Positions 2,366-15,773 of a stretch of DNA of 17,607 nt are shown here, piece after piece. This stretch comes from Bordetella parapertussis (GTDB lineage Bacteria; Pseudomonadota; Gammaproteobacteria; Burkholderiales; Burkholderiaceae_D), in NCBI GenBank assembly GCA_945867725.1, contig CAMBJI010000008.1, forward strand, positions 1-17,607, written 5' to 3'. The notes under the pieces are model-generated. The model had not been told where the DNA came from. It made no database searches and saw nothing but the letters and a program-made list of their open reading frames with translations. The position numbers were made by a program, and so were the translations under genes. Each line of letters begins with the position of its first letter. Position 1 is the first letter of the stretch.

Positions 2366-4975
2366 ATGCCACAGCCTTTGTATCGCTATGTAGAAGGACC
2401 TCGCGGCAGCGAACTTGAACAATCGGTGGTCAGAATAGTTGTTGGCGTGGCCTTACTTTCCTACTTTGCCTATATCGGCGGATCGAGTCCGTATACAAGT
2501 AATGAATTTCACGCCGATGTACTCACCGTCACGGCAATTTTTCTAGGTGTCGCACTCAGTATCAGTGCCTGCATTGTATTAGGGCGTGGTGATGTTCCTG
2601 CGCGGCGTATCGCATCCATTGTGCTGGATGTCGGTGCTCTTTCTTATGTGTTCCTGATTGGCGGAATCCATGCCGCCCCATTATATTTTCTGTACCAGTG
2701 GATCATCATCGGTTACGGTTTTCGGTTTGGCAAAAAATATCTGTTCGTTGCCTTGGCACTGTCACTCATAGGATTTGGCTGGGTCATCGTTTCCGTACCT
2801 TACTGGGTCAGCGAGCCAGGCCTTTCAGTTGGTTTGTGGGTCGGCACTCTGTTGATATCCACCTACTTCAGTACGCTGGTTGGCAGACTTTACAAAGTGT
2901 TGGAGCATGCTGAAGTCGCCAATAACGCAAAACGTCAGTTCATTTGTGCTGTCAGTCATGAATTACGAACGCCACTGAATGCCATCATTGGTATGGTTGA
3001 CTTAATGAAAAGCACCAAGATTGACCGAGAGCAAAAAGAAATGTTGGATTGCATGACCACGACTTCCCAGGTCATGTTGTCCCAGATTGAGGATGTTCTG
3101 GATTTTTCAAAAATAGAAGCAGGAAAAATGTCGATTAACTTCACGACATTTGACTTATACCAGCTGGTACAAAGCATTCTCGATATTTTTCGCTACCGAA
3201 TTGATCCGCTGGCGATAGAGTTGATGAATAGCACCGCTTGCGATGTACCTTATCTTGTCAAGGGCGATCCACATCACCTTCGGCAAATTTTGGTGAATTT
3301 GCTTGGGAACTCGGTCAAGTTTACCGAGCAAGGTCGAATAAGCTTGTGTGTGAGGCTTTTGTTCAGGACACCAAACTCAGTCCGCTTGCGCTTCTCTGTA
3401 AAAGATACAGGGATAGGCATTCCACTCGAAGCGCAGAGCAGGATATTCGACAGCTTCACCCAAGCCGAAGAAACGATTGCAAGACGCTACGGTGGGACCG
3501 GCTTGGGAACCACCATCAGTAAGCAACTCGTCGAACTCATGGGAGGGGAGATCGGCTTTCAAAGCGTTCAAGGTCAAGGAAGCGATTTCTGGTTCGAGCT
3601 GGATTTTGGTCTGGCTAACGTTGAAGACGTGGAAAAAAATTCGCTCGTTACAATCCAAGTGAGAAGCATCATCATCAGTACGAAAAAAAATACAGATGAC
3701 TTACTCAATAATCTAACCAATTACATCAACCACCCGCCCGTTCTAGCCACAGATTTTGATGAGGCAACAGACATCATTGGGCAATCCATATTAATTGGAA
3801 AGCCAATTCGTTTAATCTTCATTCAAGAGTCACCTTGGCCAGGATTGGCTATGGATGAGTACGAAACCGTTCTGAGACAAAAAGTGCTTTCCATTCGCGG
3901 AGTTACTAACGACATGCCGGTGACATTAGTGCTGATCTCTCAGTCTGATTCACAAGCGAGTCTGGTGGAAGAATTAGCCGAGAAGGTTGGATTTTCAGTT
4001 GTTCTTCATTTGCCTTTTGATCTAGACCATTTGAATAATATTTTGCACGCTCATTTTATTATTTCATCTCGCGATATTTCAAAAAAGTTTATTCCGTTTA
4101 ATGCAGAATCCGACTTGTCATTGTCAACAACGAATCTTGATGTGAAATTCGACGACTCCAGTTACAGGGTTCTGGTTGCAGAAGATAATCCTACCAATCG
4201 CAAAGTCATTCAAAAAATACTCGAGCGAGCTGGTCATCACTGTACTTTGGCAAAAGATGGTGAAGATGCGCTCGACAAAATAGAAAAAAAAGAATTCGAC
4301 GCCATTATCCTGGATATGACTATGCCTGGCATGACGGGTGTTGACGTTGCCCGTATTTACAGGCTCATGCGCGGAAACATGGCGCGCGCCCCCGTGATCA
4401 TGTTTTCAGCCAATGTGACTACAGAGGCTCGTGATGAAAGTATTGAAGCGGGCGCTGATGAATTTCTCCCCAAGCCCATTCAGGTGAATTCATTCCTGCA
4501 AACTCTTCAGCAACTTGTAACTGACTTCAAGGTGTCCGGCTCACCCGAAAATCGCGCTCTTCTGCCGAAACCGAAAAATAGATTGAAGTTATTGTGGCCA
4601 ACGGAAGCAGTACTAGACCTGCAGAGCCTGACCGATTTGGAAAATGTAAGTAAAGATCCGAAATTTCTTGATGACTTGATCCTTGAATTTATTTCTGAAA
4701 ACAGAAATTTGTTGCGCTCTCTCGAGATCGCTTTAAGTGAAGTAAAAGTGGATGAAGTAAAAGAAATACTTCACACACTGAAGGGCTCCGCGCTCAGCAT
4801 TGGGGCGGTTTCTCTGAAAATGATGTGCAAGCGCGTTGAAAAACTAAATAATTTTGAATTGGGGGAGTATTCATCTGAAATATCGCAGGAAATGAAAACA
4901 GTATTCAGTCATCTTTGCGAGGAGCTCGAAAAGTATCGACAGCTAAGACGACAAACTATTACTGAGCGTGACTAA
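2366..4975 (+). CDS. rpfC: RpfC-type hybrid sensor histidine kinase of the DSF system
   Basis: Inner-membrane sensor of the diffusible signal factor made by RpfF. With the ATG at 2366 it has 869 residues: five or six membrane helices (about 22-176); HisKA with the phospho-acceptor H198 in AVSHELRTPLN; HATPase with N315 (N box), DTGIG 347-351 and GGTGLG 376-381; a degenerate receiver-like segment about 427-564; a true receiver about 601-714 with E606/D607, acceptor D650 in LDMTMPGM and K703; and an HPt domain with H803 in HTLKGSA. As I recall, Xanthomonas RpfC is shorter (about 726 residues, key residues H198, D512, H657), so the His198 match supports this start and the extra length is the degenerate receiver. 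The frame also opens at a TTG at 2273 with GGAAG 7 bases before it, which would add 31 residues. Codon use is AT-richer than in the housekeeping genes. No rpfG is adjacent. Confidence 0.88.
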   Translation: MPQPLYRYVEGPRGSELEQSVVRIVVGVALLSYFAYIGGSSPYTSNEFHADVLTVTAIFLGVALSISACIVLGRGDVPARRIASIVLDVGALSYVFLIGGIHAAPLYFLYQWIIIGYGFRFGKKYLFVALALSLIGFGWVIVSVPYWVSEPGLSVGLWVGTLLISTYFSTLVGRLYKVLEHAEVANNAKRQFICAVSHELRTPLNAIIGMVDLMKSTKIDREQKEMLDCMTTTSQVMLSQIEDVLDFSKIEAGKMSINFTTFDLYQLVQSILDIFRYRIDPLAIELMNSTACDVPYLVKGDPHHLRQILVNLLGNSVKFTEQGRISLCVRLLFRTPNSVRLRFSVKDTGIGIPLEAQSRIFDSFTQAEETIARRYGGTGLGTTISKQLVELMGGEIGFQSVQGQGSDFWFELDFGLANVEDVEKNSLVTIQVRSIIISTKKNTDDLLNNLTNYINHPPVLATDFDEATDIIGQSILIGKPIRLIFIQESPWPGLAMDEYETVLRQKVLSIRGVTNDMPVTLVLISQSDSQASLVEELAEKVGFSVVLHLPFDLDHLNNILHAHFIISSRDISKKFIPFNAESDLSLSTTNLDVKFDDSSYRVLVAEDNPTNRKVIQKILERAGHHCTLAKDGEDALDKIEKKEFDAIILDMTMPGMTGVDVARIYRLMRGNMARAPVIMFSANVTTEARDESIEAGADEFLPKPIQVNSFLQTLQQLVTDFKVSGSPENRALLPKPKNRLKLLWPTEAVLDLQSLTDLENVSKDPKFLDDLILEFISENRNLLRSLEIALSEVKVDEVKEILHTLKGSALSIGAVSLKMMCKRVEKLNNFELGEYSSEISQEMKTVFSHLCEELEKYRQLRRQTITERD

Positions 4976-5004
4976 TCACGGGTTCTATATTTTGGGAGAA
5001 ATGT

Positions 5005-5652
5005 ATGTCATTTGCGAATCAACTTATTGAGTTGACCGATATAAATTGCCGTGAGATCGAAAGTACACCCACGATACGTAAATTACTTTCTGGAGATGTG
5101 TCAGAAAAGCACTATGTCAGTTTCATGACCGATATCTATCCTATCGTTTTGCATTTTTGTCCGATCATGGCCGCCGCTGCCGGACGTTGTGCGCAAAAAT
5201 ATGAAGCGGTCAGGCTTTATCTTTATGACCACATTCATGAAGAAAAAGGTCACGAAAAAATCGTGCTTCAAGATATTGCTAGTTTCGGCTATGCACCAGA
5301 GCAAGTGATTGAAAAAACGCCGCGTGGATCGATTCAGGCAATGATTGCGTTTAATTATTATTCGGCATTAATGGGTAATCCTTGCAGTGTTCTCGGCATG
5401 ATTTATGTACTGGAGATCATTTCCTCTGTTTATGCCGGTAAGGCTGCCGATGCTATTTCGAATACTTTCGGTCGAAAACTTTCCGATGGTTTTATTTTTT
5501 TGCAATCGCATGCTTCGGCAGACATGGAGCATATGACGAAATTACGGAATTTGTTTCAGTCAATCGATTCGCCTGAAATTATCGAGGACTTAATGAATAG
5601 TGTAAAAATGAATTTTTATCTTTTTTATCAAATATTCACGAGCGAAAAGTAG
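5005..5652 (+). CDS. Heme-oxygenase-like fold protein, putative iron enzyme
   Basis: 215 residues, all-helical in character, cytosolic (no signal peptide or membrane segment). It resembles the TenA/PqqC/heme-oxygenase-like superfamily, especially the iron-containing redox enzyme or HDO group. Candidate metal ligands fit that pattern: E80-x2-H83 (in HIHEEKGHE), E137 (in YVLEIISS) and H169/D173/H176 (in SHASADMEH). The glutamate expected on the first core helix is not evident; that helix offers H50 (IVLHFCPIM). GGGAG at 4994-4998 lies 6 bases before the ATG. It starts 29 bases after the rpfC stop, so it is probably co-transcribed with rpfC, and it converges on rpfF. Relatives such as UndA oxidise fatty acids, so action on the fatty-acid signal or its precursor is an inference. 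A non-catalytic sensor or partner role is equally open. The exact function is unknown. Confidence 0.72.
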   Translation: MSFANQLIELTDINCREIESTPTIRKLLSGDVSEKHYVSFMTDIYPIVLHFCPIMAAAAGRCAQKYEAVRLYLYDHIHEEKGHEKIVLQDIASFGYAPEQVIEKTPRGSIQAMIAFNYYSALMGNPCSVLGMIYVLEIISSVYAGKAADAISNTFGRKLSDGFIFLQSHASADMEHMTKLRNLFQSIDSPEIIEDLMNSVKMNFYLFYQIFTSEK

Positions 5653-5741
5653 CAGAAATCTGGACTTTAGTGATTTTTTGAGAAGGTCCTAAATAAATCG
5701 TATTTTTGTGTCGAGTGGTGTAGTTGTGCGACGGAGAGTTC

Positions 5742-5776
5742 AGCCAAGTTAAGGGCTTATTACCCTTAGCTTGGCT
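5742..5776. terminator. Long hairpin between convergent genes, possible terminator
   Basis: Arms AGCCAAGTTAAGGG (5742-5755) and CCCTTAGCTTGGCT (5763-5776) form a 14-pair stem with one wobble around a 7-base loop. It lies between the stops of the HDO-like gene (5652) and rpfF (5843), where a two-way terminator would be expected. Neither strand has a proper T-run after the stem (plus strand continues AAAAATGTTTTC), so termination is not certain. Confidence 0.5.
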
Positions 5777-5842
5777 AAAAATGTTTTCGGCTTTACTTCA
5801 TCAGTACATCCTTAGTTCAATGCGGTATGGGTAGCCCTTACC

Positions 5843-6784
5843 TCATGCTGCCGCAAGATAAAAGCTGCTCGCTTCCGCTTGAGCCCGCTGGTCCTGCTGC
5901 CGCCGTTGCGAGTGAACCAGACGATTCATCATGTGTAGATCTTTGTCTGTCAGCTTCAGCGCGGAATCAACCCATATCGAGGTAATGTCTAGAAGTTCTT
6001 TATACGAGACTGGATTGGTATGTCGACGGCATTCGTAGATAGCGCGTAGCCCGTTGAGTCTTTTACTTTGTTTTTGAATCATTTCGAAAACGGCTTTGGT
6101 TCCTTCGCCCGGAGGTACGACCAAGTCAACGACGCCTAATTTTTCCAAATCTTCGGCGAGATAAGTATTCCCGCTGATCATCATCTTTTCCGCAGCGCGC
6201 ATGCCAATCCGTCGGCTGAGGAGGCTATAGGCGCCCATCCCTGGAAAAAGATTGAACATGATTTCCGGAAATCCCATCCTGACCCCCTGCTCGGCAACGA
6301 TGATGTTGCTGGAGAGGGCAAATTCAAATCCGCCACCTAAGGCATCACCTTGAACGAGCGATATCGTCATTGCAGAGGCGTTATAGTTGCAAAGGCGGGT
6401 ATATATCCCATCAACACAGAGCTTTGCATAATTCATCAAAGCATGTCGGTCTCTGGCCTTGATCAGCCTGATAAACAAGGCAAGGTCACCGCCAAGGTTA
6501 AAGGTGCAAGGATGACGTGATGCAATAATAAAATAATCGACTGGAGACCAGGCGTCGTCATGAAAAAACTGGCCCTTGTTGGATTGCACTTCAGCAAACA
6601 TTTGATGCAATTCTTCCACCATGCCGAGGTTGAAACAGGGTACGCCCAGCGGTTTCATGTAAGTCCATAAAGCGTTGCTCGCGCTTTGGTACTCGAGATC
6701 AATTTGGTGATACTGCCGCTTCGGTATGGCGGCATTGCCGGTTTTTTGAATAACAGACATATTTTCACGTTCTAAAGTCATCAT
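5843..6784 (-). CDS. rpfF: RpfF-type DSF synthase (enoyl-CoA hydratase family)
   Basis: Crotonase-fold enzyme that in Xanthomonas and Burkholderia makes cis-2-unsaturated fatty acids (DSF/BDSF) from 3-hydroxyacyl-ACP by combined dehydratase and thioesterase activity. It has 313 residues. The signature region VQGDALGGGFEFALS and MGFPEIMFNLFPGMGAYS matches RpfF rather than ordinary enoyl-CoA hydratases. E154 and E174 are 20 residues apart, as are the catalytic E141 and E161 of Xanthomonas RpfF (from memory). The oxyanion-forming Gly-rich loop GGG (150-152) is present. The ATG at 6784 has AAGGAG at 6797-6792, 7 bases upstream; a second ATG follows immediately. It is convergent with rpfC and the HDO-like gene. 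The chain length of its product cannot be read from sequence. Confidence 0.9.
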   Translation of the reverse strand: MMTLERENMSVIQKTGNAAIPKRQYHQIDLEYQSASNALWTYMKPLGVPCFNLGMVEELHQMFAEVQSNKGQFFHDDAWSPVDYFIIASRHPCTFNLGGDLALFIRLIKARDRHALMNYAKLCVDGIYTRLCNYNASAMTISLVQGDALGGGFEFALSSNIIVAEQGVRMGFPEIMFNLFPGMGAYSLLSRRIGMRAAEKMMISGNTYLAEDLEKLGVVDLVVPPGEGTKAVFEMIQKQSKRLNGLRAIYECRRHTNPVSYKELLDITSIWVDSALKLTDKDLHMMNRLVHSQRRQQDQRAQAEASSFYLAAA

Positions 6785-15224: not shown

Positions 15225-15773
15225 CTAGCAATCGTCATAAGGACTCGTTCGGCCGTTCAAATGAACCTGTACTAGTCGGCCATTTCGCATGTTGAAGAAA
15301 AACCGAAAATCATCGCGATCTCCATCGCTGCCATCGCAATACATGATGTAGTTATCTTCGTTCAGACTGCGTTTTGGCTCGCCCAGATAGCCGTCTGAAG
15401 GTACTGATCGACGAGTCACCTGCGGCACCGGAATCCGAAATCTCAACGTGCCATCGGGTTTGAGTACGTTCCAGTATCGCCCGCCCGGCGTGACATACAC
15501 CAGCCCCGATCTGTCAGGGATAGGCACCGGACAATGCTGATTCTCAATAATCTCGTCCTGAAATATCCAGCGTGTGGCTACCGGAAAGCGTGTCTTATCG
15601 GGGCCGATCAGCTGATAAATCCATTTCATGATGTCGCGCGTCGGCTCATGAAAACGAGAAACCGATCCGTCATTCCAGACCTTTACCGGATTTTTGATCA
15701 GATCGCGTGCCTTCAACTTCAATTTTTGAGGCGGATTAGTGTCCTCTTTCATCACATCCTCGTCAGCGTCCAT
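15225..15773 (-). CDS. Hypothetical protein, unrecognised
   Basis: 182 residues; I do not recognise the family. No signal peptide or membrane segment is visible, so it is probably cytosolic. The N-terminus is charged (MDADEDVMKEDTNPPQKLK). The middle is rich in Trp, Tyr, Pro and Arg, with VWNDGSVSRFHEPTRD, WIFQDEIIENQHCPVPIPD and GRYWNVLKPDGTLRFRIP, which suggests beta strands and a Gly-Pro-rich fold. The C-terminal half has an acidic SDGDRDD and FFFNMRNGRL. Two starts are possible: ATG 15773, or ATG 15752 (175 residues), which has GAGGA 4 bases upstream. It is convergent with purM, and the non-coding spacer upstream carries repeats that might regulate it. Coding bias and length make it likely to be real. 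Confidence 0.7.
   Translation of the reverse strand: MDADEDVMKEDTNPPQKLKLKARDLIKNPVKVWNDGSVSRFHEPTRDIMKWIYQLIGPDKTRFPVATRWIFQDEIIENQHCPVPIPDRSGLVYVTPGGRYWNVLKPDGTLRFRIPVPQVTRRSVPSDGYLGEPKRSLNEDNYIMYCDGSDGDRDDFRFFFNMRNGRLVQVHLNGRTSPYDDC

Follow-up and report, generated by a model that had tools for sequence, protein, structure and literature searches.

The rpfC-HDO-rpfF locus

The window analysed here is a stretch of 17,607 nucleotides deposited as Bordetella parapertussis (GCA_945867725.1, contig CAMBJI010000008.1). It carries a locus of the diffusible signal factor (DSF) type in which a gene for a predicted heme-oxygenase-like dimetal oxidase (HDO) lies between the genes for a sensor kinase and a signal synthase. 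The rpfC-like gene (2366..4975, + strand) encodes a hybrid kinase with matches to HisKA, HATPase_c, Response_reg and Hpt, and these Pfam domains give it the HisKA-HATPase-REC-Hpt architecture of the Rpf two-component system. Its start at ATG 2366 is the choice of a first-pass annotation of this DNA; the longest open reading frame (ORF) starts at TTG 2273. The HDO gene (5005..5652, + strand; 215 residues) is preceded by GGGAGA, a likely ribosome-binding site read from the sequence at 4994..4999 (+ strand), and the rpfF-like gene for a DSF synthase of the crotonase family (5843..6784, - strand) converges on it. The first-pass annotation had placed a heme-oxygenase-like gene 29 bases after rpfC, with rpfF converging on it; the ORF coordinates (stop at 4975, start at 5005), the strand of rpfF and the PF14518 match of the HDO protein confirm both points.

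The RpfF protein of the window passes PRK08788 (364 bits, cut-off 177) and remains under the cut-off of the NCBIfam equivalog SgnlFctrSynRpfF (244.8 vs 550 bits). Its four best matches among solved structures include chains named RpfF (3m6m, 6dgn). Residues E154 and E174, which we take to be the catalytic glutamates of the crotonase active site, are kept in all 55 rows of the alignment, a small number of these rows coming from the same genome. In Xanthomonas, the rpfGHC operon is described as converging with rpfF (PMC4504480). The window resembles that locus in that a hybrid kinase of the RpfC type converges with a synthase of the RpfF type in which both conserved glutamates are retained, and differs in the HDO gene between them and in rpfG and rpfB, neither of which was seen in the window. 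No HD-GYP match, the mark of RpfG (REC-HD-GYP), was found in the three nearest metagenome-assembled genomes (MAGs; G001-G003), which are possibly incomplete, and RpfG seems to be missing from the DSF system in the clade of the window. In several other HDO loci rpfG adjoins rpfC, and in G875 the place of rpfG, upstream of rpfC, is occupied by a REC-EAL gene.

The space between the convergent HDO gene and rpfF holds an inverted repeat with a 14-bp perfect stem (5742..5776; -23.3 kcal/mol on the + strand), which is not called an intrinsic terminator because neither strand has a T run after the stem.

Fold and predicted metal ligands of the HDO protein

The HDO protein of the window scores 56.3 bits against PF14518 (cut-off 28.9). 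Its AlphaFold2 model (pLDDT 93, pTM 0.89) has a seven-helix heme-oxygenase-like fold, whose best matches by Foldseek and VIA are 3dde (22% identity), CADD and UndA. The fatty-acid decarboxylase UndA is represented among the solved matches by structures with lauric acid (6p5q) and 3-hydroxydodecanoic acid (4wx0), and a further structure is 4wwj; its own profile match is weak (E 0.0024). The first-pass annotation had proposed a heme-oxygenase-like, iron-type enzyme with UndA among its relatives, and this is borne out inasmuch as the fold is of the dimetal type and UndA is a structural neighbour.

Six residues (E80, H83, E137, H169, D173 and H176) are predicted to bind the metals, forming a set of three histidines and three carboxylates (3H/3C). 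The UndA ligand numbering used to align them is presumed to be correct. Five of these positions are kept in all of 71 aligned rows and E80 in 70, the alignment consisting of 55 chosen rows and 16 locus rows with the window sequence in both sets. The gene is strongly constrained, with a ratio of non-synonymous to synonymous substitution rates of 0.05-0.07 (YN00, with NG86 as fallback). Taken together, the retention of the six ligands and this constraint make the window HDO look like a working enzyme.

Several other families with this fold were considered and rejected. The proximal histidine of heme oxygenases lies in the first helix (His25 of HO-1); the window protein has no histidine in residues 1-19 and no match to PF01126, which one relative (L084) does pass (23.8 vs cut-off 23.0). 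Likewise, it has no match to PF03070, as would be expected of TenA or PqqC; distant members of the HDO group match this profile with 19.8 (L026) and 26.4 bits (L090), the cut-off being 22. CADD/PabS, a self-sacrificing p-aminobenzoate (pABA) synthase, resembles the window HDO in its fold, its dimetal ligand class and an identity of ~17%. However, the residues that it is described as sacrificing, Tyr27 and Lys152 (PMC11965152), are not kept in the window protein, where T23 and A147 align with them (hand count on a pairwise alignment), and the NCBIfam CADD score of 23.7 bits is far under the cut-off of 200.

Linkage to rpfF and descent of the HDO gene

In all 26 other genomes found to carry the HDO gene of this clade, rpfF lies beside it, so that the neighbourhood survey recovered throughout the conserved linkage on which the first-pass annotation had made its proposal depend. 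The two genes are direct neighbours in 25 genomes; in the remaining one (L004) a fatty-acid desaturase gene on the strand of rpfF sits between them. Nineteen of the loci are convergent, three have rpfC, HDO and rpfF on one strand (G901, G875, G822), and in four an HDO-rpfF pair converges with the kinase gene. None of 36 relatives from sister groups is near an RpfF match, as judged from place listings or 1.5-kb flanks (L017-L039), many of these relatives being in fragmented assemblies.

The 26 genomes come from several surveys, with genomes that recur between them counted once; in many genomes just the best few first-look candidates were scored. A scan of genome contigs with the heme-oxygenase-like protein matched 26 stretches, nine of which, all from betaproteobacterial MAGs, code for a relative; in each of the nine rpfF is close and convergent, and in eight no gene was seen in between. 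Among 399 genomes of the order of G006, relatives occur in 59 (at 1e-8) and RpfF in 72 (at 1e-30). The seven relatives with at least 35% identity all adjoin RpfF, compared with none of the 52 weaker ones near an RpfF match. With the same thresholds, 37 of 369 genomes in a class survey match the HDO profile and 68 have RpfF; linkage was found in G006 only, which is already counted. The family of G001 (145 genomes) has the HDO gene in 10 (at 1e-35), each time beside rpfF, and RpfF in 18 (at 1e-60). In the family of G273 (60 genomes; thresholds 1e-20 for HDO and 1e-40 for RpfF, with G273's own RpfF as query), the four strong HDO carriers are exactly the four with an RpfF-like gene, and three weak HDO matches (31-32%) are in genomes that have none. 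Here, the HDO gene and rpfF form a two-gene unit with the kinase on the far side. One of the HDO loci (L124 6283-7108, in G804) has rpfF split between two reading frames, next to an HDO match that is intact, owing to either sequencing error or decay.

The converse association is loose. Of the RpfF loci in the order survey, the 30 best comprise six with the HDO gene, 13 in which rpfC adjoins rpfF and HDO is absent, and 11 with neither within ~1.5 kb. The first-pass annotation had spoken of an accessory in an rpfC/rpfF locus; because of the 13 loci without HDO, the gene is indeed an accessory, while its constant partner is rpfF and not rpfC. Eight RpfF genomes in the family of G001 are devoid of HDO: six have rpfC directly convergent with rpfF, G882 is cut by a contig end, and G812 has a cut-down locus. 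In the latter (L133 6031-7820), a partial rpfF match abuts a partial rpfC match and the gene between is gone.

The 27 rpfF-linked HDO sequences form one clade against 36 others (support 100/99.5). In a smaller tree (16 linked vs 33 others), the nearest outsider to this clade is the unlinked copy of G527 (L090 7049-7834), which is flanked by genes for a BCCT transporter and a ferrochelatase. On a tree of RpfF (43 rows, 15 with HDO, after removal of rows covering <80% of the query, such as L005), the presence of HDO needs four changes, at least three of which are forced by well-supported branches. G309 has no HDO gene inside an HDO-bearing RpfF group, and the RpfF of G273 is very divergent, yet HDO-linked. 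For these reasons the HDO gene is, as far as the trees indicate, an accessory that comes and goes and stays with rpfF where it is present.

Genes of fatty-acid metabolism recur at these loci. An additional fatty-acid enzyme gene lies between rpfC and rpfF in five of the 26: a PF04116 FA_hydroxylase gene in L006, L007 and G074, and PF00487 FA_desaturase genes of two unlike kinds in L004 and L005. In the HDO-less G152 (L092 5615-7143), the same place is taken by genes for a carrier protein (PF00550) and a ketoacyl synthase, and ketoacyl synthase genes are also found upstream of rpfG in G074 and G309. In all 23 loci examined (L017-L039, including L026, which supplied query proteins), the nearest HDO paralogues have an AMP-binding ligase gene on one side and an SDR gene on the other; a TPR gene is present in 21, and the other two begin at a contig end. 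G001, a near relative of the window, also holds such an operon (L091 4810-9158), with a T_hemolysin-family gene at its head; one paper mentions a ligase of V. cholerae adjacent to delta-thermostable hemolysin (PMC12208996). This sister group has 28-34% identity to the window HDO and the same six ligands (in 32 of 32 sequences), and differs in lying away from rpfF and in other signature residues. Because of the hydroxylase, desaturase, carrier protein and ketoacyl synthase genes on one side and the ligase/SDR operons on the other, the linked clade and its sister group both appear to keep company with fatty-acyl chemistry. The sister operon (ligase, HDO, SDR, TPR) is a recurrent case of an HDO in a fatty-acyl setting.

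L004 (326-1736) holds two HDO copies, the second broken into two frames, and the ORF between them repeats the carboxy-terminal end of rpfF (93 residues, no Pfam match). The arrangement suggests that the HDO-rpfF pair was duplicated in tandem.

Possible roles of the HDO in DSF signalling

We give an even chance to the proposal that the HDO is a partner of RpfF in the DSF system, an optional tailoring enzyme that oxidises the free fatty-acid products of RpfF. RpfF homologues are described as converting 3-hydroxyacyl-acyl carrier protein (ACP) to a cis-2-enoyl product and, through their thioesterase activity, as freeing cis-2-enoic acids along with further free fatty acids (PMC4504480). The released acids would be a pool at hand for a carboxylate-binding dimetal oxidase encoded beside RpfF. 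In the manner of UndA with lauric acid, the HDO would bind the carboxylate of a free acid at a diiron or Fe/Mn centre and would use O2 to oxidise the chain by further desaturation, hydroxylation or shortening; the outcome would be a lineage that makes a modified, oxygen-dependent DSF-type signal. Computed support for this proposal comes from the fold, the ligand set, the constraint on the gene, the exclusive linkage to rpfF in three arrangements and the fatty-acid genes that recur there. HDOs with desaturase activity, MboA and PolF, are on record (PMC13108848). A partial parallel is offered by PvfB, a diiron N-oxygenase encoded in the Pvf quorum-sensing cluster of Pseudomonas (PMC10194917): it is a diiron oxygenase within a quorum-sensing signal pathway, but that pathway is no DSF system. 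Somewhat short of an even chance, in our estimate, is the broader idea that a betaproteobacterial DSF branch makes an oxidised, O2-dependent signal by means of the HDO and that the slot between rpfC and rpfF takes further fatty-acid enzymes (the hydroxylase, the two kinds of desaturase, the carrier protein with the ketoacyl synthase), which would diversify the signal.

Several observations weigh against signal tailoring. The fold alone does not single out fatty acids, because heme oxygenase HmuO (Z score 21.6) and TenA (21.4) tie with UndA (21.6), whose sequence identity to the window HDO is ~14%; the top match, 3dde (Shewanella denitrificans Sden_3740), is a protein without known function. 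In the order survey, 65 of the 72 RpfF genomes have no HDO gene. The sister sequence of G527, the second strongest HDO match of the class survey, shares the ligand set of the window HDO and lies away from any rpfF. What we say of the metals of the HDO, its substrate, its reaction and its bearing on signalling is inference. In addition, DtpC, an HDO-domain protein, is described as acting in stress, and signal production is therefore not a necessary trait of HDOs (PMC13232832).

The main rival, which we consider unlikely, is turnover: the HDO would remove DSF or the free acids that the thioesterase spills, for instance through an oxidative decarboxylation to alkenes like that of UndA, and would thereby end the signal or protect the membrane. 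The ligand-bound UndA structures among the matches are in keeping with such a reaction, as is the fact that no rpfB was seen beside the HDO loci, RpfB of Xanthomonas being described as counteracting the same thioesterase activity of RpfF in another way (PMC4504480). However, the neighbouring hydroxylase and desaturase genes fit the building of a signal better than its destruction, and a degrader held in a fixed pair with the synthase, as in the family of G273, would tend to cancel it. That pair also speaks against a regulatory role, since the HDO travels there with rpfF and leaves the kinase on the far side. On this improbable account, the protein would be a sensor and no enzyme, binding iron, O2 or a free acid and controlling RpfF or RpfC by contact; the 29-base spacing from rpfC in the window and the position between sensor and synthase genes in many loci would suit it, but the ligands of catalytic type are all kept.

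Action on precursors is very unlikely in our view. The HDO would then oxidise acyl-ACP or acyl-coenzyme A ahead of RpfF and so set its substrates, which accords with the carrier protein and ketoacyl synthase genes of G152, with the ketoacyl synthases near rpfG in G074 and G309, and with the statement that the signal mixture follows substrate supply (PMC4504480). Yet the structurally studied 3H/3C HDOs are described as binding their substrate directly at Fe1, which suits a free acid over a thioester (PMC13108848). Equally small is the probability that the HDO has no role in DSF signalling and either is kept next to rpfF through inherited gene order or acts as a standard heme oxygenase, TenA or pABA synthase. 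Many carriers also conserve the panB/dgk/folK side of the locus, and HDO relatives are annotated elsewhere as TenA or PqqC; on the other hand, the Tyr and Lys of CADD are absent, and the same four of 60 genomes hold both genes in the family of G273. Pure hitch-hiking by synteny was set aside because of the three gene arrangements and the divergent RpfF partner in that family.

The rpfF-HDO pairing is a variant of the DSF system and no new kind of system. No report of it was found in the titles and abstract openings that searches of an open-licence literature collection listed, and within that scope the statement of the first-pass annotation that it was undescribed holds. The spread of DSF-family signals made by one bacterium is ascribed to the supply of substrates to RpfF (PMC4504480); a linked oxidase, if signal tailoring is true, would be a second, enzymatic route to this diversity, would link DSF quorum sensing with oxygen and iron, and would bring a signalling pathway into the HDO superfamily, in which about a dozen functionally validated members are counted (PMC13108848). 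These genes carry labels such as 'TenA family transcriptional regulator' and 'PQQ biosynthesis protein C', which are misleading.

No tRNA genes or Rfam families were found in the window, and its ORF at 15225-15773 (- strand, 182 residues) has no Pfam match. The remaining genes include the 3' part of dnaK, followed by dnaJ, before rpfC, and a carbonic anhydrase gene and panB among those past rpfF.

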